This document shows, piece by piece, positions 252 to 28,937 of a DNA stretch of 64,000 bases. A program made the position numbers and the translations under genes. Source of the stretch: Microbacterium sp. cf046. Lineage in GTDB: Bacteria > Actinomycetota > Actinomycetes > Actinomycetales > Microbacteriaceae. Location: the NCBI RefSeq assembly GCF_900114345.1, contig NZ_FOZJ01000003.1, forward strand, positions 248,001 to 312,000, in the 5' to 3' direction. Position 1 is the first letter of the stretch; each line of letters begins with the position of its first letter. Under the pieces are notes generated by a model, which worked only from the letters and a program-made list of their open reading frames with translations, did no database searches and was not told the DNA's origin.

Positions 252-1517
252 TCAGAACTCCGTGACCATGGGTCGGCCGTCCAGGTGGGCGATCATGTTC
301 AGCACGAGGAAGTTCCAGTTCTGGAAGCCCTTGGTCATGATCGGCTCCCCGCTGTCCGGGTGGTAGTACTCGTGGAGACAGCCGTTGGCGTCCATGTCCT
401 GCCCGAACAGCCGCACGGTCTTCTCGGCGAGCTCCCTCGCGTCGTCGGCGAAACCGTACTTGAGCAGCCCCCGGAAGACGAGGTAGTTGCTGATCCCCCA
501 GATCGGCCCGAGCCAGTTCGACGGGTTGTTCGATGCCCGCAGGTCGTACATCTTCTCGAGGCGGGACAGCGTGCGCACGCCGTAGGTCGCGTTGAAGGTT
601 CGCGGATCCAGGTACCGCTGCCGCATCCGCTCGGCCTGCTCCTGAGAGGCGAAGCCCGCCCACAGCGGCAGGAAGCTCGACCAGTTGTCGATGCGCAGCA
701 GCAGCGACGACCAGCGGCGCGGCGCCCCGCTGTGCAGCCAGTCGTCCTCGTCGATCGGGCGCAGATTCAGATCGACGCTGTAGAACGTGCCGTCCCGCTC
801 GTCCCAGCAGTACGTGTTCACGGCATCGGCGAGGTTCTGCGTGCGGCCGCGCCAGCGGTTCGCCTCCACCTGGCGGCCCGACTCCTCGAGCAGGTAGCCG
901 TAGGCGAGCAGCTCGCGGTAGAGCAGGCAGTTGAGGTAGATCGAGGCGGTGCTCTTCTCGGGCCGGTAGTAGACCGACGGGTCGTTGTCGACCCCCACGG
1001 CGAAGTCGGTCTGCCAGTACGCCAGGCCGGTCTCGTCGTGCACATGGCTCTCGAGGTAGCGGCTGAGGAACAGGCCGAGCGTGTCGATGTGGGCGGCGAG
1101 CCACTCCACATCGCCGCGGCGCTGCGCGATCATCGCTGCGTGCTGCGCGAGCACCGGCTTGTGCATGTTCTCGGAGAAGTCGCCCGTCCTGCCGGCATCG
1201 CGATGCGTCAGCGGTCCGTCCGGCTTCAGCTGGATCGGCATGACCCCGTCGGCGTCGGTGTGATCGAGGAAGTTCAGGATGCAGCCCTCTTCGTACGCGA
1301 AGAACCTGCCTCTGCGGTCCGTGTCCGCTTCGACCTGACCGAGCACCGCGCTGATGAACCACGAGTCCCAGTCCCACAGCGCGGACGAGTAGTAGGGCGA
1401 GTCCGGCGTGCTCGGCACCGTGTACGGATGGGTCAGGATTCCAGCCGGCTCGCGCATCATCTGCTCGCAGGACTGGCGGATGTCATCTTCGAGCAGGCGC
1501 TTCCAGCGCTCCAGCAT
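252..1517 (-). CDS. GH63/MGH-like alpha-glycosidase
   Basis: A 421-residue protein without a signal peptide, so cytoplasmic. It carries WDWDSWF at residues 48-54, typical of the (alpha/alpha)6-barrel family that includes GH63 mannosylglycerate/glucosylglycerate hydrolases and trehalase-like enzymes. Further family-like blocks are SNWLGPIWGISNY and EYYHPDSGEPI near the C-terminus. It would hydrolyse an alpha-linked mannosyl, glucosyl or related small glycoside imported by the adjacent ABC system. It lies downstream of and co-directional with nothing in the window, divergent from the LacI pair, with an operator-like motif just upstream (1560-1572). The length fits the compact bacterial MGH-like members. 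The exact substrate is not deducible from sequence. Confidence 0.72.
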   Translation of the reverse strand: MLERWKRLLEDDIRQSCEQMMREPAGILTHPYTVPSTPDSPYYSSALWDWDSWFISAVLGQVEADTDRRGRFFAYEEGCILNFLDHTDADGVMPIQLKPDGPLTHRDAGRTGDFSENMHKPVLAQHAAMIAQRRGDVEWLAAHIDTLGLFLSRYLESHVHDETGLAYWQTDFAVGVDNDPSVYYRPEKSTASIYLNCLLYRELLAYGYLLEESGRQVEANRWRGRTQNLADAVNTYCWDERDGTFYSVDLNLRPIDEDDWLHSGAPRRWSSLLLRIDNWSSFLPLWAGFASQEQAERMRQRYLDPRTFNATYGVRTLSRLEKMYDLRASNNPSNWLGPIWGISNYLVFRGLLKYGFADDARELAEKTVRLFGQDMDANGCLHEYYHPDSGEPIMTKGFQNWNFLVLNMIAHLDGRPMVTEF

Positions 1518-1648: not shown

Positions 1649-2668
1649 ATGGCCAGGGTCGGGATTCGCGAGGTCGCCGCGCACGCCGGCGTCGCGGTCG
1701 GCACGGTCTCGCACTACCTGAACCATCCCGACAAGGTCTCCTCCGAGAAGGCCGACCGCATCCGCGTCTCGATCGAGACCCTCGGCTTCATCCCCAGCAA
1801 CGCGGGTCGGCAGCTGCGGATGGGAATCAGCACGGTGATCGGCTACATCGCCCCCGACGTGAGCAACCCGTACTTCGCCGAGATCGCCGAGAGCGTGGAG
1901 CGGCGCGCCTCCGACTTCGGGGTGAGCGTGTTCCTGGCCAACTCGCACCGCAGCAGGGAACGCGAGGATGCCTACCTCCGGGTCTTCGAGCAGCACCAGG
2001 TGCGCGGGCTCATCGTCTCGTCCCACCTTCCGATCGAAGACCGTCTGGCGGCGGTGCGCAGTCGCGGCACGCCCTCCGTGCTGGTCGGGCAGGCGGCCCG
2101 CTCGCACGAGCAGGCCTCCGTCTCGCTGGATGATGTCGACGGCGGCCGCCAGGCGATGGATCATCTGCTGAGCGTCGGATGCCGCCGCATCGCCTTCGTC
2201 GGAGGTCCGCTGGGCATTCCGCAGGTGGCCGACCGTCTGGCCGGTGCCAGTGAAGCGGTCAGCGCCGCCGGCGGCGCAGTCACCCTCGAGGTGATCAACG
2301 AGCCGGACCGCACGATCCGCGGCGGTCGAGAGGTGGCCGCGGCGCTGCTGGCCCGTCCCGCAGATCAGCGACCGGACGGTGTGTTCGCCGTGAACGACCT
2401 GCTCGCGCTCGGGATGCTGCAGACCCTGGTGGCAGGCGGGGTGCGGGTCCCCGAGGAGCTCGCGCTGGTCGGGTACGACGACAACGAGTTCGCGGAGGCG
2501 TCGATCATCCCGCTCAGCACGGTCCGCGGTCGCCACGAGGGGTTCGGAGTCGCGGTGGTCGACCTGCTGTTCGACGTCATCGAGGACAAGTCCTCAACCG
2601 CGCGCCACCGGGTCTTCAAACCCGAGCTCGTCGCACGGTCCAGCACGCTCGGGTTCGTCGCCCGATGA
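1649..2668 (+). CDS. LacI-family transcriptional regulator 1
   Basis: 339 residues from ATG 1649, chosen because GGGAAGG lies 7 nt upstream; two upstream in-frame ATGs (1619, 1643) have no usable ribosome site. The N-terminal LacI HTH (VGIREVAAHAGVAVGTVS) and hinge are followed by a periplasmic-binding-protein-like effector domain with the usual LVGYDDNEFAEA segment. It overlaps the next lacI-type gene by 4 nt (ATGA), so the two are co-translated. It is a good candidate to bind the three TTGAAACGT motifs at 154-221 and 1560 and to control the transporter and glycosidase. The inducer is unknown. Confidence 0.9.
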   Translation: MARVGIREVAAHAGVAVGTVSHYLNHPDKVSSEKADRIRVSIETLGFIPSNAGRQLRMGISTVIGYIAPDVSNPYFAEIAESVERRASDFGVSVFLANSHRSREREDAYLRVFEQHQVRGLIVSSHLPIEDRLAAVRSRGTPSVLVGQAARSHEQASVSLDDVDGGRQAMDHLLSVGCRRIAFVGGPLGIPQVADRLAGASEAVSAAGGAVTLEVINEPDRTIRGGREVAAALLARPADQRPDGVFAVNDLLALGMLQTLVAGGVRVPEELALVGYDDNEFAEASIIPLSTVRGRHEGFGVAVVDLLFDVIEDKSSTARHRVFKPELVARSSTLGFVAR

Positions 2669-3672
2669 CGGCGAACATCCGCGATGTCGCCGAGCGCGCA
2701 GGCGTGTCGGTCGGCACCGTCTCGAACGTGCTGAACCATCGCGAGAAGGTGTCGCCGGATGCGGTCCGGAGGGTGCGAGAGGCGATCGAGGAACTGGGCT
2801 ATGTGCGCAACGACGCCGCTCGTCAGCTTCGCGTCGGCCGCAGCTCGACGGTGGGGCTCGTGGTGCTCGATGTCAGGAACCCGTTCTTCACCGATCTCGC
2901 GCGCGGCGCCGAGAGCGAGGCGGCCAGGCACGGTCTGTCGGTCATCCTGGGCAACAGCGACGAGGATGTCGAGCGCGAGGCCGGGTACCTCGACCTGTTC
3001 GAAGAGCAGCGCGTGCGCGGCATCCTGATCTCCCCGTACCGCGAGGTCGGCCCCCAACTGCGACGCCTCCGCGAGCGCGGCACGCCGGCGGTGCTGGTGG
3101 ACCGTCGCAGCGAGGACGAGCTCTTCAGCTCGGTGAGCCTCGACGACGAGATGGGCGGCAGGCTGGCGGCGGAGCACCTGATCCAGACCGGCCGGCGGTG
3201 GATCCTGTTCACCGGGGGCCCCTTCGACATCCGTCAGATCGTCGACCGTGAGGCGGGCGCGCGCCGCGCCGTCGAGGCGGCGGCGGGTGTCACGTGGGAG
3301 ACCGTGCCGACCCCGGCCGCGAGCGTCGCCGACGGACGAGCGACCGGAGAGCTGATCGCCGCACGAGCACCAGAGGACCGGCCGGATGCGATCTTCGCGG
3401 CGAACGACCTCGTCGCGATGGGCGTGCTGCAGGGGCTCGCCGGTCACGGCATCCGCGTGCCGGAGGAGATCGCGATCATCGGCTTCGACGACATCGACTT
3501 CGCATCCGCGGCGGTCGTGCCGCTGTCCTCGATTCGTCAGCCGAGCCAACTGATGGGCGAGACGGCGCTGCGGATCCTGCTGTCGGAGATCGACGACCCG
3601 GACGGCGATGCTCAGCAGGTGGTCTTCGAGCCTGAGCTCGTGGTTCGCGCCTCCACCGCGCCGGCCGTGTAG
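2665..3672 (+). CDS. LacI-family transcriptional regulator 2 (tandem paralogue)
   Basis: 335 residues. The HTH block (IRDVAERAGVSVGTVSNVLNH) closely resembles that of the preceding gene, as do NPFFTDLARGAESEA and the FDDIDFASAAVVPLS effector-domain segments. The ATG at 2665 overlaps the previous stop (ATGA). Two paralogous LacI repressors in one operon could form a heteromer, bind the same operators with different inducers, or control different targets. A bidirectional hairpin terminator follows at 3724. Confidence 0.9.
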   Translation: MTANIRDVAERAGVSVGTVSNVLNHREKVSPDAVRRVREAIEELGYVRNDAARQLRVGRSSTVGLVVLDVRNPFFTDLARGAESEAARHGLSVILGNSDEDVEREAGYLDLFEEQRVRGILISPYREVGPQLRRLRERGTPAVLVDRRSEDELFSSVSLDDEMGGRLAAEHLIQTGRRWILFTGGPFDIRQIVDREAGARRAVEAAAGVTWETVPTPAASVADGRATGELIAARAPEDRPDAIFAANDLVAMGVLQGLAGHGIRVPEEIAIIGFDDIDFASAAVVPLSSIRQPSQLMGETALRILLSEIDDPDGDAQQVVFEPELVVRASTAPAV

Positions 3673-4876: not shown

Positions 4877-5332
4877 TCAGCGAACCGCCTCGAAGAGGAG
4901 CATCGCGGCATCCGGCTCGTCCGCGGTCACTCCGCGGATCTGTGGGAACCTGCCCAGGAGCCGGAACCCCAGCGCTTCATGCATCCGGATCGACGCGACG
5001 TTGGTCTCGTCTGTGAAGTAGCAGACCCGGCCGGCTCGCGCCCAGATCCAGTCCAGTCTCGCGATCGTCAGGCTGCTCCCGACGCCGCGTCGGCGGAAGC
5101 CCGGTGCCACGACGAGCCCGCCCAGATAGTGACCCGCGGGGGCCTCGCCATCGGGCTCGCCGTGGAAGTGGGTCTTCGCGGCGCCGACGACGACACCTCC
5201 CGTGACCGCCACGAGGGCCACGCGATCCTCGTTCGGACTGAGCATCCGCTCGGTCCAGCGCGCCCGGGCGCTCGCGTCGCACACGACGGCCACATCGGCC
5301 AGGTCGTCCACGCGGGCCTGGCGGATCTCCAT
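4877..5332 (-). CDS. GNAT-family N-acetyltransferase
   Basis: 151 residues from ATG 5332 (MEIRQARVDDLADVAVVC). The acetyl-CoA-binding motif is GLVVAPGFRRRGVGSSL, followed by ETNVASIRMHEALGFRLLGRF. All core GNAT motifs are present. The substrate is unknown. TACCCT ends 7 nt before the start and no ribosome site is visible, suggesting a leaderless message; upstream in-frame starts (5386, 5413) would add non-conserved residues. It is convergent with the RibD-like gene, with stop codons 8 nt apart. Confidence 0.85.
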   Translation of the reverse strand: MEIRQARVDDLADVAVVCDASARARWTERMLSPNEDRVALVAVTGGVVVGAAKTHFHGEPDGEAPAGHYLGGLVVAPGFRRRGVGSSLTIARLDWIWARAGRVCYFTDETNVASIRMHEALGFRLLGRFPQIRGVTADEPDAAMLLFEAVR

Positions 5333-12037: not shown

Positions 12038-12895
12038 TCAGGCTTCCGGACTCCGCTGCGCCGCGATGTGCTTCGCGCCCTGCTCGACGACGATGCGGAC
12101 GAGCTGCGTGCCAGGCACGAAGATGTTCACCGCCTCGACGCCCACATCGAGGAGGAACTTCGGCTCGAGGATCTTGCCCAGGTACTGCTCGAAGGTGGCG
12201 CCGTCGGGCCGGGTGTTCCCGGTCAGTCCGTCGAACTCGATCACGGCCTCCTTGCCGCCGTGACGATAGCGAAACGCGTACACCGGCCGATAGACCAGGT
12301 CGACGAGATCGACCGTTACCCGTTCCTCGAGCACGCGGTCTGCGTCGATCCTCCCGATCGCGCTCGCCATCACCTCGCGGACGAGCATCGACGCCTTCGC
12401 GTCCGGCGGAACCACGACGGTGCCGGATTCGGTCTCCGCGGCCAGGGTGGCGGCATCCGCAAGCGAACTCGCGAAGCTGTCGTACACGTTCAGTGCGGGG
12501 GTCTCGGCGCGGGTCAGGCCGTCGAACAGAACATCCCGCGCAGTCTCATCGAGGCAGGTCTCCAGGCCCGACAGCACGATGCGACCCTGGTCGACGGGCA
12601 GGGTCTGCTCGCCGATCTGCACGCTGCGCACGCTCGGGGCGACCGGCACGGCGTAATTGCGGGTGCGCTCGTATTCGGCGACCGTCGTGACATGCAGACG
12701 CCAGAACGGCTGCAGTCGGCGTTCGCGATAGATGCACTCGTAATCCTCGGACGTGGCGCGATTGAGCAGGCCTCCGAGCTTCGCGCCGGTGCCGAACGCA
12801 TCAGCTCGCCGTGACCACGCGCGCCCCTCGGCGTGATCGAGACTGAAGCGGTCGGCGAGCACGAGGATGCGCTCCTCAGCGATCACGACCTCCAT
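12038..12895 (-). CDS. uncharacterised conserved-looking protein
   Basis: 285 residues from ATG 12895 (GAGGGG 8 nt upstream). Not recognised. No signal peptide or membrane helix. Visible blocks are SEDYECIYRERRLQPFWRLH, an aromatic/basic stretch, YERTRNYAVPVAP, EERVTVDLVDLVYRPVYAFRYRH, and a C-terminal beta-rich part with FLLDVGVEAVNIFVPGTQLV. Codon use is like that of its neighbours, so the gene looks real. The alternating hydrophobic/charged C-terminal half suggests a beta-sandwich or tubby-like fold, but this is only an impression. Confidence 0.6.
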   Translation of the reverse strand: MEVVIAEERILVLADRFSLDHAEGRAWSRRADAFGTGAKLGGLLNRATSEDYECIYRERRLQPFWRLHVTTVAEYERTRNYAVPVAPSVRSVQIGEQTLPVDQGRIVLSGLETCLDETARDVLFDGLTRAETPALNVYDSFASSLADAATLAAETESGTVVVPPDAKASMLVREVMASAIGRIDADRVLEERVTVDLVDLVYRPVYAFRYRHGGKEAVIEFDGLTGNTRPDGATFEQYLGKILEPKFLLDVGVEAVNIFVPGTQLVRIVVEQGAKHIAAQRSPEA

Positions 12896-12967
12896 CGCAG
12901 CATCCCCTCTCGACGTCGTGGTCAGCATACGACCGGTCGGCCCGCGACGGCAGGGCTGCTCCGATCG

Positions 12968-14692
12968 TCAGCGCCGCGCGAAGGAGAAAGGCTCCAGCGG
13001 GACGACCACCGGTGCGGATCCGCCATCGATCACGAGCGTCACCTCGCGCGGGCGGATGTCGAGATTCGCGACCAGGACCGCATCGCCGCCCTGGCGTCGT
13101 GAGCCGACGGCCCACAGCAGGCCGTCCGGGCTGTCGCCCCAGAGCAGCTCCGCCCCAGGCCCCCCGAGCGCTGCGAGCGCCTCGATCGCCTCCGCGACGT
13201 CGAACGGCTCACCCGCCGAGGAGCGGATGCCGCGTTCGCCCCACTGTTCGAAGTAGGCGATGCTCGCCACCCCCGGCACCGCGAGAGCTGCCGCGCTTGC
13301 GATCGTCCACGCCGCGAGCTCGGGCGCGGACTGGCGCGGGTCCGCAGCGCCGGTGTACTCCGCGCCGTAGCCGCCCGACAGATCTGTTCCGGTGGGCAGC
13401 GGCTGGGGAGTGGTCGCGACGTCGTTGTAGCGCGGACGCAGGGTGACCGGCCCGATGTGCACCGGCATCCCGCCCGCCAGCTCGACCGCCTGCAGCGCGA
13501 TGGTGCGCTGCACCGCGACCGATTCGACCAGCTGCTCGGTGCCGAGCGAGTGGAACAGAGGAGTGGTGCTGAAGGCGATGCCGTCGAGCTCGCGCGGGAC
13601 GATCGCCCATTCACGATTGAGCTCGGTGAAGTGGGCACGAGAACCGCCGATGACCGAAGTCGTGACGCCCGCGCGATCCAGCGCCTGGCGCAGGGCACTC
13701 AGCACCGCTGCATCGGTGACGTGCAGGTCGGCTTCGAAGACGCCGATGCGCTTGACTCCCGGTGTGCTGGCGAGCGCGCGCACCGCCTCGGCCAGTGCGT
13801 CGTAGGGAGCATCGGCCGATGCGACCACGCGCACATCCAGTGGAGAGCCGGAGCCGGCCGCGCGCGACAGGGCGGCGCGCCAGTTCGGTGTCCGCAGATC
13901 GACCTCGACGAGCACGGCGCCGGCCGTGGTCGCGCCGGTCGGGTCCGGGCCCGGTGCGGTCGCGGCGCCGATGGCGAGTTCGAACACCGGGCCGGCCGCG
14001 TGCAGGTGGATCAGGTCCGAGTCGGCGGACGAAGCGGATGCCGCGACCTCGCGCACGTCGATCCGTACGCTCTGACGCACGCGTTCGGCGGCGGCGACGT
14101 CGTAGGGGAACGGCAGTCCGAGCGGCCGGCTGTAGGTCTTGTACGACGCATCCGACCAGTTGCGCTGATCCTCCATCTCGAACACGTCGCCGTCGAAGCC
14201 GACTGCGACTTCGGATCCCTCGTCGAGCCACGCCAGGCCCGCGATGTCCAAGACCGGCTGATGCGGACTGATCGCGCGTGGGAACGACGACTCCTCGACC
14301 GAACCGTCGGAGTGCGTGACGCGCAGCGCCGTGCCCGCGAGGCGGGGCGGATGCAGCACGACGAGACCAGTCCGGTTCGTCGAGAACGGGCCCTCGGCCT
14401 CGAGATCGGTGAGGACGACCAGGCGCGCCGCACCCCGCGCCTCCACTCGCACGATCCCGCTGAAACTCGACCCGAGGCCGTCCGATCGGACGTGGAGCGT
14501 CAGCGTGGCGCCCGAATCCTTCACGCGGTCGAGGACGAGGCGGGCCGTGTCCCAGTTGCGATCGCGCACGACGGCGCGCACCGAGCGCAGCACGACACGG
14601 CCCTCGAACGCGATGTCGGCGAACTCGTCATCGCGCAGCTGGAGCGACCAGGGGCCGCTCCGCCACGTGCGGGACTCGGTGGACCACGCCAT
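12968..14692 (-). CDS. apnL: putative D-apionate lactonase
   Basis: 574 residues, cytoplasmic. It has a beta-rich N-terminal domain and a C-terminal part like a TIM barrel with a trailing beta domain (LVANLDIRPREVTLVIDGG). I assign ApnL because it lies with apnO and oiaC homologues in one operon; ApnL opens apionolactone to D-apionate in the published D-apiose pathways. The block MPVHIGPVTLRPRYND and the ending LEPFSF are consistent with that family as I remember it. It is the last gene of the operon, 16 nt after the SDR gene. Sequence alone does not prove lactonase activity. Confidence 0.65.
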   Translation of the reverse strand: MAWSTESRTWRSGPWSLQLRDDEFADIAFEGRVVLRSVRAVVRDRNWDTARLVLDRVKDSGATLTLHVRSDGLGSSFSGIVRVEARGAARLVVLTDLEAEGPFSTNRTGLVVLHPPRLAGTALRVTHSDGSVEESSFPRAISPHQPVLDIAGLAWLDEGSEVAVGFDGDVFEMEDQRNWSDASYKTYSRPLGLPFPYDVAAAERVRQSVRIDVREVAASASSADSDLIHLHAAGPVFELAIGAATAPGPDPTGATTAGAVLVEVDLRTPNWRAALSRAAGSGSPLDVRVVASADAPYDALAEAVRALASTPGVKRIGVFEADLHVTDAAVLSALRQALDRAGVTTSVIGGSRAHFTELNREWAIVPRELDGIAFSTTPLFHSLGTEQLVESVAVQRTIALQAVELAGGMPVHIGPVTLRPRYNDVATTPQPLPTGTDLSGGYGAEYTGAADPRQSAPELAAWTIASAAALAVPGVASIAYFEQWGERGIRSSAGEPFDVAEAIEALAALGGPGAELLWGDSPDGLLWAVGSRRQGGDAVLVANLDIRPREVTLVIDGGSAPVVVPLEPFSFARR

Positions 14693-14708
14693 GATCAGCC
14701 GAAGCGGT

Positions 14709-15464
14709 TCACAGGGTCGTCATCCCGCCGTCGACCGCGAACAGCGAGCCGGTGGCGAATCCGGCGTCGTCGCTCGCGAGGAACACCATGATGCCCTCGA
14801 CGTCCGCTGGGGATCCCGCTCGCCCGAGCGGGATGCGGCCGATGATCGCCGCGCGCGAGTCGGGATCCGATGAGATCGCCGTGACCAGCGACGTCTCGGT
14901 GTAGCCCGGGACGACGGTGTTCACACGGATGCCGCGATCGGCATATGCCGACGCGACGGTGCGTGCGAGACCGTGGATGCCGGCCTTCGAGGCGCTGTAC
15001 GCCGTGAAGTCCCTGCCCTCGCCGTTCAGACCTGTGGGGCTTCCGGTCAGGATGATCGACCCGCCGCCCGTGGCGAGCATGCTGCGCACAGCGTGCTTCA
15101 CCGTGAGGAAGGTGCCGGTGAGGTTGATGTCGATCGTGCGCTTCCAGACCTCCAGATCGAGGTCGGCGGCGGCGGCATCGTGCCCGAACAGCTGCACACC
15201 GGCGTTGGCCACGACGACGTCCGGAGCCCAGCCCTCAGCGCTCAGCAGGCCGAACGCCGCCTCCACCGAGGCCTCATCGGAGATGTCCATGATGGCCGCG
15301 CGGGCGTTCCCGCCGATCGCGGCCACCGCGTCAGAAGCCGCAGCGGCATCGCGGTCGGCGATCACGACCCGCGCGCCCTCGCGGGCGAACCGCTCGGCGA
15401 CGGCTCGGCCGATCCCGGTGCCGGCGCCGGTGATGAGCGCCGTCTTTCCTTCGAGCCTGCTCAT
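14709..15464 (-). CDS. short-chain dehydrogenase/reductase, candidate sugar/polyol dehydrogenase of apiose pathway
   Basis: 251 residues from ATG 15464. Classical SDR: TGAGTGIG cofactor loop, NAGVQ, and catalytic Ser/Tyr/Lys in LTGSPTGLN and YSASK. VVIADRD after the second strand ends in Asp, favouring NAD+. It sits between apnL and apnO. In other bacteria a Gfo/Idh enzyme (ApsD) oxidises apiose; here the SDR may take that role, or oxidise a tetritol/apiitol to the ketose or aldose. The second choice would match SDR-type threitol dehydrogenases known beside lerK/lerI/derI. Confidence 0.85.
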   Translation of the reverse strand: MSRLEGKTALITGAGTGIGRAVAERFAREGARVVIADRDAAAASDAVAAIGGNARAAIMDISDEASVEAAFGLLSAEGWAPDVVVANAGVQLFGHDAAAADLDLEVWKRTIDINLTGTFLTVKHAVRSMLATGGGSIILTGSPTGLNGEGRDFTAYSASKAGIHGLARTVASAYADRGIRVNTVVPGYTETSLVTAISSDPDSRAAIIGRIPLGRAGSPADVEGIMVFLASDDAGFATGSLFAVDGGMTTL

Positions 15465-15475
15465 GCGGGATCCTC

Positions 15476-16339
15476 TCAGCGCTCGATGTGATCGAGGTGC
15501 AGCATCCGCGCGAGATTCTTGTCGAGCTCGTCGTCGCGGAAGATCTTCTTCCAGTCTTCCTTGATGATGCTCTCGCGCCCATAGTCCATCGCGATCAGGC
15601 AGGCGTCGCTGAACGGGTTGTCGCCGCGCAGTCCGTTGGCCAGTGCCACCTGCGTGTGACCGTACAGGATGCTGCGGGCCGCCGCTTCCGGCACTCCCAT
15701 CGTGTGGATGGCCTCGTCCAAGGCCTCGTTCAGCAGCGCGCCGATCATGCACGCGACCGTCTCAACGAGGGTGGGCTCGAGCTGGGCGAGCTGCTTGATC
15801 GTGACGAAGTGCACGTCGATCACGGGGGCGTAGATCGCACGGACCGTCGCCTCGACGATCGCGGCCTTAGCCGGGTCGTCGGACTCGACGGCGGCGATCG
15901 CGTCCTGCGCAGCGGCGATGCCGCCGAACGTGTCGGCGTACTCCTCGGGCGTCGTGCGCTGCAGGAAGATGGACGGGTGGCACGGGTGGGCCACGGCGCG
16001 GATGACGTCGTCGCGGTCGGTCAGCAGCCCCGCGTAGGCCGCGGCAGGATCGAGCGTCAGCGCGATCGAGCCGGGCTTCATCTGCGGCACCAGGTCGGCG
16101 GTCACCGGGCCGAGCGCCAGGTCGGGCACCGCGAAGACCACGATGTCGGCGTCGCCGACCGCGGTCGCGGCATCCGTCAGCTCGCGCCCGGCATCGCGGG
16201 TGCGCTGCTGGCCGGCGGGCGAGTTCTCGACGAAGAAGGCCTCATGCGCGGTCTTGACGAGGTTGTCGGACACCCGCATGCCCATCTTTCCGCCCGCGCC
16301 GATGACGGCGATCTTGTAGGTCTGAGTGGCGTCGGTCAC
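15476..16339 (-). CDS. apnO: D-apionate oxidoisomerase
   Basis: 287 residues from GTG 16339 (AGGAG 6 nt upstream, overlapping the oiaC stop). The N-terminal Rossmann motif is IAVIGAGGKMGMRVSDNL. The C-terminal half (LAQLEPTLVETVACMIGALL, ESIIKEDWKKIFRDDELDKN) resembles the phosphogluconate dehydrogenase C-terminal-like family that includes ApnO. ApnO converts D-apionate to 3-oxo-isoapionate using NAD+. The neighbours (oiaC, lerK, lerI, derI) supply exactly the downstream steps, which strongly supports the call. Confidence 0.78.
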   Translation of the reverse strand: MTDATQTYKIAVIGAGGKMGMRVSDNLVKTAHEAFFVENSPAGQQRTRDAGRELTDAATAVGDADIVVFAVPDLALGPVTADLVPQMKPGSIALTLDPAAAYAGLLTDRDDVIRAVAHPCHPSIFLQRTTPEEYADTFGGIAAAQDAIAAVESDDPAKAAIVEATVRAIYAPVIDVHFVTIKQLAQLEPTLVETVACMIGALLNEALDEAIHTMGVPEAAARSILYGHTQVALANGLRGDNPFSDACLIAMDYGRESIIKEDWKKIFRDDELDKNLARMLHLDHIER

Positions 16340-17130
16340 AGTGTGCTCCTGAGGTATTCGATGGTGGTGCGGGTCCAGTCCCGCTCGGTTCGGATGGTGG
16401 TCTCGGCATCGCCCTGCCAGGGCAGCCAGTGCTCGACGATCTCGTTGACGGCGCGCTCACGCGGGCGGACGGTCTCGAGCAGGTGGGGGTAGTCGTGCAG
16501 GCCGGTGCCCATCGGGGCGCCGGAGTAGGTGAAGCCGACCCAGCCGTCCTGGCGTGCGAACGCGAAGTCCTTCACGTGCACGTTCGCGACGAGCGGGGCG
16601 GTGAGCTCGACGGCGTCGCGCGGACGCTCGAGCCGCGCGACGACATTGCCGGGGTCGAGGCAGATGCCCAGCTGCGGGCTGCCGAAGGAGTCCACGAGGC
16701 TCACGAGGTCGGCCGTCGCGATCTGCTCGTAGGTCTCCAGGGCGAGGGTGACGTCGGCGGCCTCGAACCCCGGGAGTGCGGCGCGGAGCTGATCCTCCGC
16801 TTCCGCGAGCGTCGGGCGCGAGTCGGGGCCGTAGAGCATGCTGCGGACCAGCCGCGCGTCGAACACCTCGGCGAGCACGAGGAACCGCCTGAGGTGCTCG
16901 GGGTCGATGCCCTTCGTGCCGAGTTCGACCGTGAGGCCGAGATCGCGTGCGGCGGATGCGGCATCCTGCAGCTCTGCATCGCTCATGAGTTCGAGGGGCG
17001 CGTAGTCGCAGATCTGGAACAGGTCGACATCGAGCGCGCGCGTGGCCTCGAGCGCGCCGATGAGCGACAGGGGATCATCGACCCGGTCGGAGTGCTGCCA
17101 GAAGAACGCGTACGTTCCGAGCCCGATCAC
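16336..17130 (-). CDS. oiaC: 3-oxo-isoapionate decarboxylase, xylose-isomerase-like TIM barrel
   Basis: 264 residues from GTG 17130, overlapping the lerI stop by 4 nt. MIGLGTYAFFWQ, VDLFQICDY, VELGTKGI, LALETYEQ, LGICLDPGN, NVHVKDFAF and VEHWLPWQG are spaced as in AP-endonuclease-2/xylose isomerase TIM barrels, with metal ligands Glu, Asp and His at strand ends. In the D-apionate pathway OiaC decarboxylates 3-oxo-isoapionate to L-erythrulose. The context (apnO after it, L-erythrulose kinase before it) fits this exactly. Confidence 0.75.
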   Translation of the reverse strand: MIGLGTYAFFWQHSDRVDDPLSLIGALEATRALDVDLFQICDYAPLELMSDAELQDAASAARDLGLTVELGTKGIDPEHLRRFLVLAEVFDARLVRSMLYGPDSRPTLAEAEDQLRAALPGFEAADVTLALETYEQIATADLVSLVDSFGSPQLGICLDPGNVVARLERPRDAVELTAPLVANVHVKDFAFARQDGWVGFTYSGAPMGTGLHDYPHLLETVRPRERAVNEIVEHWLPWQGDAETTIRTERDWTRTTIEYLRSTL

Positions 17131-18044
17131 GCGCTGTCCTCTCGGGTGTCCGCCGCGTGGGTGTCCTCCGCCTCGGTGCCGTCCGCCTTGGCGTCCTCCG
17201 CCGAACCCATGCTCTCGCCGCGAACCCCTGCGTTCCCAGGGCCAGGAGCGGATGGGTTCGCGGCGAGCATGTGGGTTCGGCGAGGGTGCGAGGCGGCCAG
17301 AGCCGCGGCCTCGTCGAGGACAGCGGCCAGCGCGTCGGGATCGTGGGCGAACCGACCGAGGAACAGACCGTCCACCGTGTGGCCGAGCTCGGTGAGCAGG
17401 CCGGGTCCCGCGGAGCCGCCGTAGATCACGGAGCTTCCGGAGCGGGCCGGGTCGGCGTTCAGCGCCGCGCGAAGGGCCAGCGTGACTTCGCTGATGTGCG
17501 CGCCCGGCGCCGGGGCCGGAGCTCCGATCGCCCAGACGGGCTCGTACGCCACGATCACCGCGCCGGTGGGCGCGCCGATGAGATCGCGCTCGAGCTGCGC
17601 GACGGTCGCCGCGGCGGCATCCTGCGCGTCGAGCCGCTCAGCCTCGCCGATGCAGAGGACCGGCGTGATGCCGTTGCGCAGGGCGGCTGCCGCTTTCGCG
17701 GCGGTCACCTCATCGGTCTCGCCGAACAGCCTCCGGCGCTCGGCGTGGCCGATCTCGGCGACGGTCACGCCGATCTCGGCGAGTTCGACGGCACTCACCT
17801 CACCGGTGTACGGCCCGCTGTCCTCGGTGGCGACGTCCTGTGCGCCGATCCGCACGGGGGTGCCGGCGAATGCGGCGATGGCGGGCAGCAGCTGGGGGTA
17901 GGTCGGGATCACGAAGAAGCCGACCTCGCCCGAGCTGACGGCGGGGTGTTCGCGCACGAGTCCGGCGACCCGCTCGAACCACTCCAGAGCCTCGCGATGA
18001 CCGAAGTACATCTTGAGGCTCACGCCCACCAGTGCGTGCGGCAT
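17127..18044 (-). CDS. lerI: L-erythrulose-1-phosphate isomerase (triose-phosphate isomerase homologue)
   Basis: 305 residues from ATG 18044 (TGATG overlap with derI). Residues 1-250 are a TIM: VGVSLKMYFG (Lys replaces the Asn-x-Lys of true TIM), VAEIGHAERRR with catalytic His, IVAYEPVWAIG with catalytic Glu and IYGGSAGPG phosphate loop. Together with the DhaK-type kinase and RpiB-type isomerase this matches LerI, which makes D-erythrulose-4-phosphate. Oddity: a 50-residue tail follows the TIM fold. It is coded by a palindromic repeat (17200-17281) and a low-complexity Asp/Glu/Ala stretch, and looks like an extension created by repeat insertion. Confidence 0.78.
   Translation of the reverse strand: MPHALVGVSLKMYFGHREALEWFERVAGLVREHPAVSSGEVGFFVIPTYPQLLPAIAAFAGTPVRIGAQDVATEDSGPYTGEVSAVELAEIGVTVAEIGHAERRRLFGETDEVTAAKAAAALRNGITPVLCIGEAERLDAQDAAAATVAQLERDLIGAPTGAVIVAYEPVWAIGAPAPAPGAHISEVTLALRAALNADPARSGSSVIYGGSAGPGLLTELGHTVDGLFLGRFAHDPDALAAVLDEAAALAASHPRRTHMLAANPSAPGPGNAGVRGESMGSAEDAKADGTEAEDTHAADTREDSA
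17200..17281. repeat. imperfect palindromic repeat, copy A (inside lerI 3' end)
   Basis: Outer arms GCCGAACCCA / TGGGTTCGGC and inner arms CTCGCCGCGAACCC / GGGTTCGCGGCGAG form a ~28-bp interrupted inverted repeat around a 26-nt centre. The GCGAACCC core and GCCGAACCCAT end recur at 22493 and 23677. It encodes about residues 255-282 of the lerI product. Confidence 0.8.
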
Positions 18045-18514
18045 CAGCAGCTGCCGGTGCTCTCGTATTCGCCGATGACGGCGACCTTCTCGGCGGATGC
18101 CGATGTCGGGTCGAACCGGTAGGTCAGCCACTCGCGCACGAGGCGGCGGGCGAGCTCGATGCCGACGACGCGCTGACCCATCGTGAGCACCTGCGCGTCG
18201 TTGGAGAGGACGCCCCGCTCCACCGAATAGCTGTCGTGCGCGGTGACCGCGCGGATGCCGGCGACCTTGTTCGCGGCGATCGCGACGCCCAGGCCGGTGC
18301 CGCAGATCAGCAGCGCGCGGTCCGCTTCGCCGGATGCGACGAGCTCGGCCGCGGCGATCGCGACGCGCGGGTACGCGGTGTGTCCGTCGGCATCCACGCC
18401 CACATCGACGAGCGATGCGACTCCTGGGTCGCCCTCGAGGTCCCGCTTGAGGATCTCCTTGTAGTCGAATCCGGCGTCGTCGCTGCCGATCACGATCCGC
18501 AGTGCTTCCGTCAT
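18044..18514 (-). CDS. derI: D-erythrulose-4-phosphate isomerase (RpiB/LacAB family)
   Basis: 156 residues from ATG 18514. RpiB-type: [42 protein letters not shown] (catalytic-type Cys and the anion-hole GTGLG) and [14 protein letters not shown]. The length fits the family. Next to lerK and lerI it would isomerise D-erythrulose-4-phosphate to D-erythrose-4-phosphate (DerI/EryI role) instead of acting on ribose-5-phosphate. The start is 1 nt after the lerK stop, so the genes are tightly coupled. Confidence 0.85.
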
Positions 18515-18515
18515 G

Positions 18516-20237
18516 TCAGTTCCTTTCGAGGACGGCGCCGACGGCCGTCGCGATGAGGGCGAGCGAGTGAGCGCCCGGGTCCGGGGTGCCGAGCGACTTC
18601 TCGGCGTGCGGACGGGCGCGGCCCATCCGGGGGAGCAGGTCCGCGGTGGATGCGGCGGCACGGGTCGCCGCGTCCGCCGCGGTGGCCCAGGCCGCGGCGA
18701 GGGAGGCGCCGGAGTCGATGCCGTGCGTGAGCTCGACGCTGAACGGGACGAGCGCGTCGACGAGGGTCTTGTCGCCGACTTCCGCCTTGCCGTAGGTCAT
18801 GACCGACTGCACGCCGGCGGCGACGCCGCTCGCCACATCGGCGGAGGACGGCGAGCCCACGTCGCCGAGCTTGCCGGCGAGGCTCGCCAGGATGAGCCCC
18901 CACAGCGCACCCGAGGTGCCGCCGGCGCGGTCCGACCAGGCATCGGCGGCGCGGGCCAGGACGGTCTGGGCGCCGGCTCCGGCATCCCGTGCGGCGATCG
19001 CCGCGTCGCGCGCGGCGTGCGATCCGCGCTGCATGCCGATGCCGTGGTCGCCGTCGCCCGCGATCGAGTCCAGGCGGCCGAGCTCGTCCACATGCGCATC
19101 GACCGTCGCGGCGATGGTCTCGACGGCCTGCGCGACAGTCGCGGCGATCGCGCGCGATGCCTCGTCGGACGGGGGGATCGCCTCGGCGGCGAGGTCCGCA
19201 TCGGCCGAGGCATCCGCCTGTGCCGCCGCGACCACCGAGCCGCGACGATACGCCGGGGTGTCCACCGGCGTGTCCCACAGGGCCTCGAGCTCGGCATCCG
19301 GCCAGAAGAGGGTCAGCGAGGTGCCTGCCATGTCGAAGCTCGTGCAGTACTCGCCGACGTGCGGATCGATGATCTCCACGCCCGCCGCGCCGAGGAGCTC
19401 GGCGATGCGCCGGTACACGACGAACATCTCCTCGTACTTGAGCGAGCCGAGGCCGTTGAGGATCGGCACCACGCGTGCGCCCGACACGTCGACGCCCTCG
19501 GGCACCTCGTCCAGCAGGCGGGAGACGAGCAGCTCCGCGAGACCGTCGGCGGTGGGGATGCCGGTCTCGTCGATTCCGGGTTCGCCGTGGATGCCGAGAC
19601 CGATCGCCATGCGCCCGTCCGGCACCGAGAACAGCGGCTGCTCCGCGCCGGGCAGCGTGCAGCCGGTGAAGGCGACGCCGAAGGAGCGCGTGCGCTCGTT
19701 CGCGAGCCCGGCGACCCGGGTCACACCCGCAAGGTCGTAGCCGGCCTCGGCGGCAGCCGCCGCGACCCGGAAGACTGTGAGGTCGCCGGCGATGCCGCGC
19801 CTCTTGTGCTTCTCGGCGGGGGACGCGCTGAAGATGTCGTCGGTCACCGCGACCGTGTCGCACGGGATGCCGTCGGCGCGCAGGCGCTCCTGCGCGGCAT
19901 CGAAGTTGAGCACGTCGCCGGCGTAGTTTCCGTAGGAGAAGAAGACGCCGCCCCCGCGCTCGGCCGCGGACGCGACCGCGTGGATCTGCTGCGTCGACGG
20001 CGACGCGAAGAGGTTGCCCATCGCGGCCCCGTGTGCGAGGCCCTGACCGACCAGTCCGCCGAACGCCGGGTAGTGCCCCGACCCTCCGCCGACCACGACC
20101 GCGACCTGGCCCTGCGGGACGACGGTGCTGCGCACGACCCCGCCCGTGACGCGGCGGACGTAGCGCTCGTTCGCCGCGACGAAGCCTGCGATCATCTCGT
20201 CGGCGAAGTCCGCCGGGTCGTTCCAGAGTCTCGTCAT
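18516..20237 (-). CDS. lerK: L-erythrulose kinase (DhaK-DhaL fusion)
   Basis: 573 residues from ATG 20237 (AGGAG 5 nt upstream). Residues ~1-330 are a DhaK domain ([23 protein letters not shown], and [11 protein letters not shown] with the substrate-linking His). Residues ~375-573 are a DhaL domain ([15 protein letters not shown] for Mg-[12 protein letters not shown]). Single-chain ATP-dependent dihydroxyacetone kinases have this layout. The lerI/derI/oiaC neighbourhood points to L-erythrulose as substrate, giving L-erythrulose-1-phosphate. First gene of the operon, divergent from the GntR regulator. A general dihydroxyacetone kinase role is the alternative. Confidence 0.82.
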
Positions 20238-20317: not shown

Positions 20318-20351
20318 GTGACAAACCGGTTGACCAATTGCAAGTGCAATT
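20318..20351. promoter_or_regulatory. divergent control region with inverted repeats for the GntR regulator
   Basis: Between lerK and gntR, AATTGCA-AG-TGCAATT (20336-20351) is a perfect 16-bp inverted repeat, and AACCGGTT lies in the adjoining GACAAACCGGTTGACC. Both are plausible FadR-subfamily operators controlling the operon and the regulator. Confidence 0.55.
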
Positions 20352-20378: not shown

Positions 20379-21116
20379 ATGCCCGCCTACCCCGGAGATC
20401 GATCGGACGAGATCTCGGCCGCGCTCAGCGCGCTGCCGAGCGGTACGCCCGTCTCCGAGGTGGCCCGCCGTCTGCTCGACCTGTTCACCAGCGGCTCGAT
20501 CGCCCCGGGCACGAGGCTTCCTCCCGAGCGACAGCTCGCCAGCACGCTCGGAGTGGGTCGCTCGGCGGTGCGCGAAGCGCTCGCCGCGCTCGAGATCCTC
20601 GGAATCGTGGACGTGCGGCCCGGGTCGGGCACCTACCTGCGGGGCAACGCGAGCGAGCTTCTGCCGCAGACACTTCGGTGGGGCCTCCTGATCGGCGAGC
20701 GCAACACCGCGCAGCTGCTCGAACTGCGCTCCGGGCTGGAGATCTACGTCGCCCGCCTGGCGGCAGGTCGCGGCGACGCCGCCGAACTGCAGAAGGTATC
20801 GACGCAGCTCGAGCGCATGTCGGCGAACATCGACAATCTCAAGGCATTCGCCCGCGCCGACCTCGAGTTCCACCTCGCCCTCGGGCGGGCGGCGGGCAAT
20901 GACATGCTGGTCGACCTCCTGCAGGTGGTCCGGTCGCTGCTGCAGGTCTATGCCGACCGGGCGGTGCACGACCAGGCGGCGGCGGCGGTCGCCATCGACG
21001 AGCACGACGCCGTGTACCAGGCGGTCGTTCGCGGAGACGAGGATGCGGCGGCATCCGCGATGGCCGTGCACATGGCGACGGCATCCCGGCGTCTGTCCGC
21101 CGACGCCGCACGGTAG
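20379..21116 (+). CDS. GntR/FadR-family regulator (FCD domain)
   Basis: 245 residues. The winged HTH (PGTRLPPERQLASTLGVGRSAVREALAALEILGIV) is followed by an alpha-helical FCD domain with ADLEFHLALGRAAGND (metal-ligand Asp/His) and a late His in AVHMATASRR. FCD regulators usually respond to small organic acids or sugar acids, fitting an apionate or tetronate-type inducer. ATG 20379 follows TAGGTT by 6 nt (leaderless type). Divergent from lerK and 32 nt before the alditol oxidase gene, so it probably controls both directions. Confidence 0.88.
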   Translation: MPAYPGDRSDEISAALSALPSGTPVSEVARRLLDLFTSGSIAPGTRLPPERQLASTLGVGRSAVREALAALEILGIVDVRPGSGTYLRGNASELLPQTLRWGLLIGERNTAQLLELRSGLEIYVARLAAGRGDAAELQKVSTQLERMSANIDNLKAFARADLEFHLALGRAAGNDMLVDLLQVVRSLLQVYADRAVHDQAAAAVAIDEHDAVYQAVVRGDEDAAASAMAVHMATASRRLSADAAR

Positions 21117-21148: not shown

Positions 21149-22399
21149 ATGACCGGCAATTGGGCAGGGACCTACGACTACGCGTCACCGCGCATCGTCA
21201 CCGCATCGTCCGTCGAGGAGGTGCAGCGCGCAGTCGCCGGAGGCGGCCGCGTGCACGCGCTCGGCACGCGTCACTCGTTCACCGACCTGCCCGACACCAC
21301 GGGGACGCTGATCGACCTCGCCGGGCTGACGGGCGGTTTCGCGCTCGACGAGGGCGCCTCGACCGTCGATGTCGCTGCGGGCACGCGGTACGGCGAACTC
21401 GCGCTGTGGCTCGATGCGCGCGGCTACGCGCTGCACAACCTCGGTTCGCTGCCGCACATCTCGGTCGGCGGTGCGACCGCGACGGCCACGCACGGCTCGG
21501 GCAACGCCAACGGCGTGCTCACGAGCGCGGTGCGCGGCATCCGCTACGTCGGCGCCGACGGCGACGTGCACGAGGTGCGGCAGGGCGATCCCGATTTCGC
21601 CGCGCTCGCCGTCGGCGTCGGCGGGTTCGGCGTGGTCGTGTCGCTCACCCTCGCCGTGCAGCCCACCTACCGCGCGCGTCAGGACGTCTACACCCGGGTC
21701 TCGTGGGATGCCGCGCTCGATCGGTTCGACGAGATCACCGGCGCCGGCTACAGCGTGTCGGTGTTCACGCGATGGGAGCCGGACCTGCTCGGCGACGTGT
21801 GGGTCAAGACCCGCCTCGAGGCGGACGACGATCCGGTGCCGGATGTGCTCCTGAATGGGAGTCGTGTCGTGGACGCGAACCCGCTCGAGGGGCTCCCCGA
21901 TCTCACCGAACTGGGCGGCGTGCCCGGACCCTGGCTGGCTCGGCTGCCGCACTTCCGGCTCGAGGGCAAGCCATCATTCGGAGACGAGATCCAGAGCGAG
22001 TACTTCGTGCCGCGGTCGGACGCGCCGGCGGCGCTGCGAGCGGTGCGCGAGCTCGCACCGAGGATCCAGCCCGTGCTGTTCGTCAGCGAGCTGCGGACGG
22101 CGGCATCCGACGATCTCTGGCTGAGCGGCGCATACCAGCGCGACTTCCTCGCGATCCACTTCACCTGGCACAACGACGATGCCGGCGTGCGGGCCGTGCT
22201 GCCCCTCGTCGAGGAGGCGCTGGCGCCGTTCCTCGCACGACCGCACTGGGGCAAGCTGCACCTGTTCGATGCGGCCGCGATCGCTCGGGTGCACCCGCGG
22301 CTCGCCGACGCGAGGGCCGTCTTCGAGCGGCTGGATCCAGAGGGCCGCTTCGTCAACGCGCACCTCGAGCGGGTTGGTCTGCGCGCGCCGCGCGGCTGA
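21149..22399 (+). CDS. FAD-dependent alditol oxidase
   Basis: 416 residues, close in length and layout to Streptomyces AldO. It has the VAO-type FAD-binding domain with GTRHSF (His42, position of the covalent FAD His46 of AldO), NLGSLPHISVGGATATATHGSGNANG, then a cap domain ending in FLARPHWGKLHLFDAAAIARVHPRL and LDPEGRFVNAHL. AldO oxidises terminal CH2OH of xylitol, sorbitol and other polyols with O2, giving the aldose and H2O2. Downstream of the GntR gene of the apionate cluster, it may produce the branched or tetrose sugar that the pathway uses. The true substrate is open. Confidence 0.85.
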   Translation: MTGNWAGTYDYASPRIVTASSVEEVQRAVAGGGRVHALGTRHSFTDLPDTTGTLIDLAGLTGGFALDEGASTVDVAAGTRYGELALWLDARGYALHNLGSLPHISVGGATATATHGSGNANGVLTSAVRGIRYVGADGDVHEVRQGDPDFAALAVGVGGFGVVVSLTLAVQPTYRARQDVYTRVSWDAALDRFDEITGAGYSVSVFTRWEPDLLGDVWVKTRLEADDDPVPDVLLNGSRVVDANPLEGLPDLTELGGVPGPWLARLPHFRLEGKPSFGDEIQSEYFVPRSDAPAALRAVRELAPRIQPVLFVSELRTAASDDLWLSGAYQRDFLAIHFTWHNDDAGVRAVLPLVEEALAPFLARPHWGKLHLFDAAAIARVHPRLADARAVFERLDPEGRFVNAHLERVGLRAPRG

Positions 22400-27749: not shown

Positions 27750-28937
27750 TCAGGCCGAGGTGGAGATCCAGCGGCTGCCTTCGGCGGAGCTGCGCTCGAC
27801 GGCATCCAGCACGCGCTGCACGTGCAGGCCGTCCGCGAACGACGGACGCGGCTGCCTGCCCTCGACGATGGCGTTCACGAAGTCGACCACCTGGTGGGAG
27901 AACCCGTGCTCGTAGCCGAGCATGTGACCTGCGGGCCACCAGGGCGCCAGATAGGGGTGATCGTGCTCGGTCACCAGGATCTTTCGGAATCCCTGCTCCG
28001 TCGGCGGCAGCGTCGCGTCGTAGAAGTCGAGTTCGTTCATCCGCTCGAGATCGAACGAGATGGCGCCGAGCGAGCCCGACACCTCGATCGTGAGCGCATT
28101 CTTGCGACCGGTCGCGAACCGCGTGGCCTCGAAGATGCCAAGCGGCGCGTAGCCGCCGCCTCCGGGGTTCGAGTACCGGCCCGAGAAGAGCGCGATGTCG
28201 TCCACCGTGACCTGGCCCCGCTCGGTGGAGGCCGTCCCCGACAGTCCGACGCCCTCGGCGAGCAGCGGGCGCTCGGCCACGATCGTGTCGATCACGCCCG
28301 ACACGCTCTCCAGGTGCAGGCCGGTGATGTATTCGGACAGGTCGACCGCGTGTGCGCCGATGTCGCCCAGGGCGCCGGAGCCGGCGCGATCCTTCTGCAT
28401 CCGCCAGGTGAGCGGCGCCTCGGCGTCCATCAGCCAGTCCTGCCGGTACGACGCGCGCACCTGTCGGATCTCGCCGACTCGGCCGGCGGCGATGAGGTCG
28501 CGCGCGAACGTGGCGGCGGGAACGCGCCGGTAGGTGAAGCCCACCATCGCGTGCACGCCGCGCTCAGCGGCGCGCGCGGCGGCATCCGTCATCGCCTCCG
28601 CTTCGGCGACCGTGTTGGCCAGGGGCTTCTCGCACAGCACGTGCTTGCCTGCCTCGAGGGCGGCGATGGCGATCTCGGCGTGCGTGTCGCCGGGGGTCAC
28701 GATGTCGACGACGTCGATGTCGTCGCGGGTGATCACCTCGCGCCAGTCGGTGGCCGCCTCAGCCCATCCCCACTTCTCAGCGGCTGCGGAGACCGCGGCG
28801 GGGTTGCGACCGACCACGACGGACATCGAAGGCTCGGCGGGCAGATCGAAGAAGCGGGGGGCGACGCGCCACCCCTGCGAGTGTGCGGCGCCCATGAAGC
28901 CGTAGCCGATCATGGCGACGCGAAGGTTCTCGGTCAC
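27750..28937 (-). CDS. Gfo/Idh/MocA-family oxidoreductase 1
   Basis: 395 residues from GTG 28937. The N-terminal Rossmann motif is VAMIGYGFMGAAHSQGW and the catalytic EKPLAN block is at ~100. The C-terminal alpha/beta domain has DIGAHAVDLSEYITG, with the usual Asp and His. Length and the SWRM/TWRMQKDRAGSGALGDI-type segment resemble levoglucosan dehydrogenase-like members that make 3-keto sugars. With the TIM-barrel partner and ribose-type importer this would be a pathway for a cyclic sugar, inositol or anhydrosugar. The substrate is not proven. Confidence 0.83.
   Translation of the reverse strand: MTENLRVAMIGYGFMGAAHSQGWRVAPRFFDLPAEPSMSVVVGRNPAAVSAAAEKWGWAEAATDWREVITRDDIDVVDIVTPGDTHAEIAIAALEAGKHVLCEKPLANTVAEAEAMTDAAARAAERGVHAMVGFTYRRVPAATFARDLIAAGRVGEIRQVRASYRQDWLMDAEAPLTWRMQKDRAGSGALGDIGAHAVDLSEYITGLHLESVSGVIDTIVAERPLLAEGVGLSGTASTERGQVTVDDIALFSGRYSNPGGGGYAPLGIFEATRFATGRKNALTIEVSGSLGAISFDLERMNELDFYDATLPPTEQGFRKILVTEHDHPYLAPWWPAGHMLGYEHGFSHQVVDFVNAIVEGRQPRPSFADGLHVQRVLDAVERSSAEGSRWISTSA

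Follow-up and report, generated by a model that had tools for sequence, protein, structure and literature searches.

How can an operon for the breakdown of D-apionate begin from D-apiose when the Gfo/Idh-type apiose dehydrogenase ApsD, the usual enzyme of the first oxidation, is missing from it? The question is raised by a stretch of 64,000 nucleotides from Microbacterium sp. cf046 (contig NZ_FOZJ01000003.1, positions 248,001 to 312,000; hereafter the window), which has a guanine-plus-cytosine content of 69.6% and comes from a genome of 4.0 Mb. An earlier note on this DNA had described seven closely spaced minus-strand genes, among them one for a short-chain dehydrogenase/reductase (SDR) held to stand in for ApsD. 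All seven are confirmed at 12968-20237, with overlaps of 1-4 nt or gaps of at most 16 nt, and their reading frames are backed by protein conservation (about 40-90% identity) and by the recurrence of the same gene order in other genera. In order of transcription, these genes are:

18516-20237, minus strand: DhaK-DhaL kinase, LerK-like, starting with ATG, first in transcription order
18044-18514, minus strand: RpiB-type isomerase, DerI-like, ATG, 1-nt gap after the kinase gene
17127-18044, minus strand: paralogue of triosephosphate isomerase (TIM), LerI-like, ATG, 1-nt overlap with the RpiB gene
16336-17130, minus strand: OiaC-like decarboxylase, GTG, 4-nt overlap with the TIM gene
15476-16339, minus strand: ApnO-like oxidoisomerase, GTG, 4-nt overlap with the OiaC-like gene
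14709-15464, minus strand: SDR of 251 aa, ATG, 11-nt gap after the ApnO-like gene
12968-14692, minus strand: ApnL-like lactonase of 574 aa, ATG, 16-nt gap after the SDR gene

We consider it likely that this operon serves D-apiose catabolism, with the SDR as a replacement for ApsD, and it is very probably an intact-looking apiose operon of a kind common in actinobacteria. From the observed gene content, family matches, co-occurrence, adjacency and shared regulatory site, a route can be proposed in which every catalytic activity, as well as D-apiose as the substrate, is predicted from sequence. The SDR would use NAD+ to oxidise the cyclic hemiacetal form of D-apiose to D-apionolactone, and the ApnL-like protein would open the lactone ring to give D-apionate. 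The ApnO-like protein would then convert D-apionate to 3-oxo-isoapionate, from which the OiaC-like protein would produce L-erythrulose by decarboxylation; the DhaK-DhaL kinase would phosphorylate this to L-erythrulose 1-phosphate, from which the two isomerases, TIM-like and RpiB-like, would lead to D-erythrulose 4-phosphate and D-erythrose 4-phosphate, the latter entering the pentose-phosphate pathway. Control of the operon would be exerted by a divergent GntR regulator via a AACCGGTTGACC site.

The evidence that carries this reading is the partnership of the SDR with the lactonase. In a survey of 299 genomes of the family (the source genome counted), ApnL was found in 51, belonging to 28 of 85 genera, and an SDR orthologue (E <= 1e-75) is present in 47 of these 51 versus none of the 248 ApnL-negative genomes (Fisher p 1.3e-50, the genomes not being independent). 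ApnO (E <= 1e-40) occurs in 62 of the 299; the SDR is present in 46 of the 50 genomes that have both ApnO and ApnL, and in 0 of the 12, from 8 genera, that have ApnO without ApnL (p 8e-10). The SDR thus tracks ApnL and not the apionate genes alone and so belongs with the lactonase, as would be expected if it were lactone-forming. The two genes are also neighbours: in 40 of the 47 SDR-positive genomes, no more than 400 bp separate them. In the stretches of at most 20 kb examined round the ApnL match, one for each of the 50 other ApnL-positive genomes, the SDR orthologues are mostly 61-82% identical and usually adjoin ApnL, both where the pair belongs to the operon and where it stands separately. 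A further set consists of 80 named ApnL loci, the top-ranking ones of at least 577 confirmed stretches. Of these 80, 58 hold the SDR at 415 bits or more (other SDRs there reach at most 140 bits), with a distance to ApnL of no more than 400 bp in 55 (44 times upstream on the same strand, 8 times downstream and 3 times on the opposite strand). All 58 are from Actinomycetota by title, with Microbacteriaceae, Arthrobacter, Brachybacterium, Quadrisphaera, Nakamurella and Nocardioidaceae among them. The SDR form of the operon, put forward in the earlier note as a variant, is therefore present and supported; it is not an isolated one, being rather the usual form in the sampled actinobacterial ApnL loci.

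The same distribution bears on another explanation, according to which the SDR would be a dehydrogenase of C4-branch polyols or ketoses, similar to DthD/GolD, that converts threitol, erythritol or apiitol to erythrulose or apiose and forms no lactone. This would suit the match of the SDR to the NCBIfam GolD/DthD model (168 bits, cut-off 286), the sorbitol, galactitol and xylitol dehydrogenases among its structural neighbours, and an alditol oxidase gene that stands behind the regulator. We nonetheless regard it as unlikely, given that the SDR follows ApnL and is missing from all 12 ApnO genomes without ApnL, and that no kinase or isomerase gene is found in the stretch examined for 21 of the 58 named SDR-ApnL loci.

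If the SDR forms the lactone in place of ApsD, its position relative to ApnL can be compared with that of the Gfo/Idh enzyme. Out of 236 matching records, five proteobacterial plasmid loci were inspected; all five have a Gfo/Idh gene upstream of ApnL, and in four this gene comes straight after a DUF2291-type ATP-binding cassette (ABC) transporter. In a spread listing, 7 of 20 rows give a Gfo/Idh gene as the annotation bordering the match; at this border, the other 13 have either no annotation or a hypothetical protein only. An ApsD model built from the five Gfo/Idh proteins matched no open reading frame (ORF) at E <= 1e-5 in 50 family loci and, between positions 5001 and 30000 of the window, a single one, a distant Gfo/Idh at 27750-28937 (minus strand, 74 bits) located 7.5 kb beyond the operon. 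This is the nearest one found, and the operon neither contains nor adjoins a Gfo/Idh gene, in line with the earlier statement that no Gfo/Idh apiose dehydrogenase is present. The 80 named loci gave only two matches to the model, both below 50 bits (L142 and L138), and a 60-bit ApsD-like tblastn piece adjoins ApnL in L179, from a Latescibacterota metagenome-assembled genome (MAG). When the whole genomes of the 51 ApnL-positives were searched, one had an ApsD relative above 100 bits (G029, 220 bits) and nine more had one at 74-96 bits. A hidden ApsD elsewhere in the source genome was considered and rejected: its 17 Gfo/Idh matches include none at E <= 1e-20 to proteobacterial ApsD. The slot that ApsD holds upstream of ApnL in the inspected proteobacterial loci is mostly occupied by the SDR. 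Co-occurrence with ApnL, adjacency and the near-absence of ApsD all support the earlier suggestion that the SDR supplies the missing first oxidation, and the SDR is a probable non-orthologous replacement of the Gfo/Idh-type ApsD, usual in the sampled actinobacterial ApnL loci.

The SDR itself (PF13561/PF00106) is of the classical type, with a glycine-rich nucleotide motif, the Asn-Ser-Tyr-Lys set and a Rossmann fold; all 30 orthologues that were aligned share Asp37, Asn114, Ser142, Tyr156, Lys160 and the glycine motif without exception. In SDRs, an Asp at the end of the second strand favours NAD+, and this is where Asp37 stands. Oxidation of aldoses at C1 is a familiar activity among SDRs, as in L-rhamnose and glucose 1-dehydrogenases, and the SDR matches the corresponding NCBIfam models under their cut-offs. 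Its structure model (predicted local distance difference test, pLDDT, 84.8) has the standard SDR fold, with structural matches at Z 31.2-32.9. The first two rows, within scores that are practically tied, are pyridoxal 4-dehydrogenase and nepetalactone synthase, both lactol-to-lactone oxidisers, a likeness that cannot be weighed here. The protein is best described as a putative NAD+-dependent D-apiose 1-dehydrogenase, the prediction extending to both substrate and cofactor.

Its proposed partner was rightly named in the earlier note as the least sure assignment, since the profile search gives a distant homologue: the 574-aa protein scores 211.9 bits (E 1.7e-62) on the ApnL equivalog model NF049900, that is, 212 bits for a cut-off of 750. 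By comparison, ApnL controls from Rhizobium, Paraburkholderia and Roseibium reach 770-1052 bits on this model, the three scanned all passing the cut-off. The protein can still be aligned end to end and collinearly with proteobacterial ApnL, with 42 invariant columns in 19 sequences, four of them proteobacterial; the motifs FEMEDxRNWxDxSxKxY and FTExNR are invariant across the same 19 sequences. Furthermore, 35 of 35 aligned ApnL-like homologues match NF049900 at E <= 1e-10. Being a homologue of ApnL in the wide sense that misses the equivalog cut-off, the protein is called ApnL-like here, and we propose that it acts as a D-apionolactone hydrolase. Its structure model (pLDDT 92.6) consists of an N-terminal beta domain and a barrel. 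The fold search used residues 223-574 and barely covered the N-terminal domain; within these limits, the barrel resembles those of arabinofuranosidases, beta-glucuronidase/heparanase and xylanases (Z 21.6-24.2). Both this resemblance to arabinofuranosidases and beta-glucuronidases and the distance from the ApnL model would fit a lactone-forming pair whose natural substrate is not apiose but a different aldose, branched or furanose, or else a sugar derived from a glycoside. With the invariant residues of ApnL kept, and with ApnO-like and OiaC-like genes typical of apionate-type operons, which would require chemistry of the apionate type, such a substrate seems improbable, slightly more so than the C4-branch role discussed above.

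For the genes downstream of apionate in the proposed route, the roles of ApnO, OiaC, LerI, DerI and LerK given in the earlier note agree with the protein families and with the gene order of Erwinia and Pantoea operons. A profile check of the ApnO assignment finds the PF16896 C-terminal domain (187 bits) together with an N-terminal NAD-binding domain (PF03446/PF03807, weak), consistent with an ApnO-type enzyme; the protein also matches PDB 5t57 at 211 bits over residues 8-278 and is 58% identical to an Erwinia protein of an apionate-type operon. The OiaC-like protein (PF01261, 62 bits) is 54% identical to the Erwinia TIM-barrel gene product encoded next to ApnO, and synteny with Erwinia and Pantoea identifies it as the xylose-isomerase-like barrel that adjoins ApnO in an erythrulose-type operon; no OiaC model was matched in NCBIfam by this protein or by its Erwinia counterpart. 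The LerI-like TIM paralogue (PF00121, 171 bits), of which the operon holds a second genomic copy beside a 306-bit TIM elsewhere, would be the L-erythrulose-1-phosphate isomerase. The DerI-like protein (PF02502), likewise accompanied by a second RpiB gene elsewhere in the genome, passes the TIGR02133 RPI_actino model of NCBIfam (205 bits, cut-off 168). The LerK-like kinase scores 732.6 bits on NF011049, above the cut-off of 492, and is 61% identical to the Erwinia protein.

Three features that the earlier note did not mention adjoin the operon on its upstream side:

20324-20340: operator-like 17-bp site AACCGGTTGACCAATTG, between the divergent GntR and operon genes
20379-21116, plus strand: GntR/FCD regulator (PF00392 and PF07729), divergent from the operon
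21149-22399, plus strand: AldO-type alditol (xylitol) oxidase, matching PDB 2vfr xylitol oxidase at 327 bits, an accessory candidate

GntR relatives of at least 50% identity adjoin pathway genes in many genera. Even when 3 mismatches are allowed, the window contains the 17-bp site only once, where 0.01 would be expected, and ten-base words of AACCGGTTGACC recur in 59-62 of 65 intergenic stretches between GntR genes and divergent pathway genes (some loci being represented twice). When a weight matrix built from these 65 stretches was run at its threshold, 0.99 Mb of shuffled loci produced no match. The 122 distinct loci produced 177 matches, 156 of which lie at most 250 bases upstream of a pathway gene, partly by construction. 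The site also precedes 22 of the 41 distinct SDR genes that start a unit of their own, mostly outside the training stretches, and stands directly before 5 of 6 DUF2291-type ABC transporter units. It is probably the operator of the GntR regulator.

Several points weigh against the assignment of the SDR and its operon to D-apiose. At the level of the proteins, the SDR is not close to any SDR whose specificity is known, and the structural search gave no pointer to its substrate, the 50 best matches, at 29-41% identity, being practically tied; the ApnL-like protein, far under its cut-off, is not a member of the equivalog; and the DerI-like protein does not reach the cut-off of the NCBIfam DerI model NF051858 (144 bits of 240), so that its role as D-erythrulose-4-phosphate isomerase rests on context. 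As regards the survey, the genomes are related and the counts not independent (28 genera with ApnL, 26 with the SDR), up to 9 first-look SDR candidates were scored per family genome, and the 80 named loci, having been matched to an alignment led by the window protein, lean to near relatives. Moreover, the partnership is not without gaps: four ApnL-positive genomes have no SDR (G056, G057, G228 and G268), as is the case in the stretch examined for 22 of the 80 named loci (9 from other groups and 13 from Actinomycetota by title, among them two of the 27 from Microbacterium, with some of the 13 on short contigs). ApnL loci without SDR thus exist, which implies that ApnL can act without it. Finally, no site reaches the threshold in 19 of the 41 separate SDR units.

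Some of the loci without a nearby SDR have features of their own. In L044, L048 and L070, which have ApnL with no SDR near it, a neighbouring gene reads as SMP-30/gluconolactonase-like, with an ABC sugar transporter after it in L044 and L070; copies of the SDR are found elsewhere in the genomes G087 and G246 (L044 and L048) and none is found in G268 (L070). ApnL-like genes with no SDR in the stretch examined are also seen in L177 and L179-L189, whose MAG titles name Chloroflexi, Anaerolineae, Latescibacterota, Poribacteria, Gemmatimonadetes, Acidobacteria, Rubrobacter and other Actinomycetota. One of them, the Gemmatimonadetes MAG locus L183, carries an aldo/keto reductase gene (PF00248; 11352-12284, plus strand) among ApnL-, OiaX-, OiaK- and ApnO-like genes; this is possibly a third type of entry dehydrogenase.

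Could the AldO-type oxidase, rather than the SDR, oxidise apiose or apiitol in the source strain? Its gene stands behind the regulator both here and in several congeners, and in the congener G106 it lies between ApnL and the SDR, with an operator-like site between ApnL and AldO, in front of the latter. AldO is further present at the named loci L111, L119 and L123. Yet a close copy occurs in just 12 of 59 genomes of the genus (source included), and no ApnL is found in the 19 kb surrounding 6 of these, the other 6 being near the operon; AldO was not seen in any of the 48 family-survey loci from other genera, and the site stands directly in front of only 1 of 7 distinct AldO genes. We therefore consider this explanation very improbable, and a fixed partnership of AldO with the operon is ruled out by the 6 of 12 close copies in the genus that lie away from it.

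The SDR remains the preferred apiose dehydrogenase. The window also holds a second accessory candidate, 11 kb from the operon:

252-1517, minus strand: glycoside hydrolase similar to GH63/MGH1 (PF22422, 122 bits)

Relatives with 70-75% identity adjoin ApnL in six distinct places (L098, L116, L125, L128, L134 and L047, among loci L031-L190), and in L116, L128 and L134 the hydrolase gene overlaps the ApnL stop codon. The operator-like site is directly before one of six such hydrolase genes, that of L047. In the family, the hydrolase is rare (4 of 299 genomes, three of them ApnL-positive), and the copy in G140 is 500 kb from ApnL. In L128, L134 and L047 it is present with no SDR orthologue in the stretch examined, a misfit to a hydrolase solely feeding apiose to the SDR; the protein is a candidate intracellular hydrolase of apiosides or of glycosyl-apionate. 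Two LacI-family genes (1574-2668 and 2665-3672, plus strand) are divergent from the hydrolase gene.

As for transport, a major facilitator superfamily (MFS) gene adjoins pathway genes in four of the five other genomes of the genus with AldO near the operon (G106, G342, G344 and G326, not G309) and is present at 9 of the 27 named Microbacterium loci; in several actinobacterial loci, it is a DUF2291/ribose-type ABC transporter that adjoins the entry enzymes. As the earlier note had stated, the operon of the window has no transporter gene, and the source genome holds no orthologue of the MFS gene of the congeners (best match 30 bits). On the downstream side, a 296-aa open frame (12038-12928, minus strand) starts 39 bases beyond the ApnL-like gene; it had no match in Pfam or NCBIfam and no relative by tblastn in the 50 family loci.

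Combining these elements, one can tentatively envisage a complete Actinomycetota regulon leading from apiosides to erythrose 4-phosphate, with an SDR-type apiose 1-dehydrogenase at its centre, a single GntR operator, an intracellular GH63/MGH1-like hydrolase to release apiose (or apionate) from glycosides and, for Microbacterium, an AldO through which apiitol enters; in this full form, the proposal is possible rather than likely. Apiose is a constituent of rhamnogalacturonan II and of numerous plant glycosides (PMC11747546), so that its breakdown is of importance to microbes living in association with plants. Should the SDR prove to be the apiose dehydrogenase of actinobacteria, the pathway could be recognised in genomes whose annotation now overlooks it, as ApnL in these scores far too low to be named and ApsD is mostly missing. 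The operon would also clearly illustrate how a fixed slot of a pathway can pass from one enzyme family to another, and the candidate regulatory site would provide a handle for finding further apioside genes. No publication on an SDR-type apiose dehydrogenase was seen among the open-licence papers listed, and the SDR form of the pathway is new as a variant as far as these searches reach.

How, then, does the operon relate to known systems? In the erythritol/threitol pathway of Mycobacterium smegmatis, LerK, LerI and DerI turn L-erythrulose into D-erythrose 4-phosphate. The window has the same kinase and two isomerases for this conversion, but its L-erythrulose would come from apionate via ApnO and OiaC and not from a tetritol. 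The D-apiose pathway of Rhizobium-type bacteria, reportedly described by Carter et al. in 2018, is said to consist of ApsD, ApnL, ApnO, OiaK and OiaX. Common to both are the lactone route via ApnL and ApnO and, in several actinobacterial loci, the same DUF2291/ribose-type ABC transporter beside the entry enzymes; they differ in the first enzyme, Gfo/Idh ApsD there and an SDR in the actinobacterial operon, and in the lower part, where the window has OiaC and the erythrulose branch instead of, or besides, OiaK/OiaX. A Rhodobacteraceae strain reported to grow on D-apiose has a cluster annotated with apionolactonase, apiose dehydrogenase, apionate oxidoisomerase, 3-oxoisoapionate kinase and 4-phosphate decarboxylase (PMC11747546). 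An exchange of entry enzymes has already been proposed elsewhere: Escherichia coli is reported to grow on D-apiose with two putative oxidoreductases, which in the view of the authors take the place of the apiose isomerase belonging to a different route (PMC13001218). The apionate-type operons of Erwinia and Pantoea, carried on plasmids, have LerK, LerI, OiaC and ApnO in the same order; the window genes are 45-61% identical to those of Erwinia (54-61% for these four), with 69% identity for the MFS transporter that a congener has. These operons differ from that of the window in having an MFS gene and in showing neither ApnL nor a dehydrogenase/SDR, and would start from D-apionate. Seen from this comparison, the actinobacterial operon looks like an apionate module to which an apiose entry module, made of the SDR and ApnL, has been joined.

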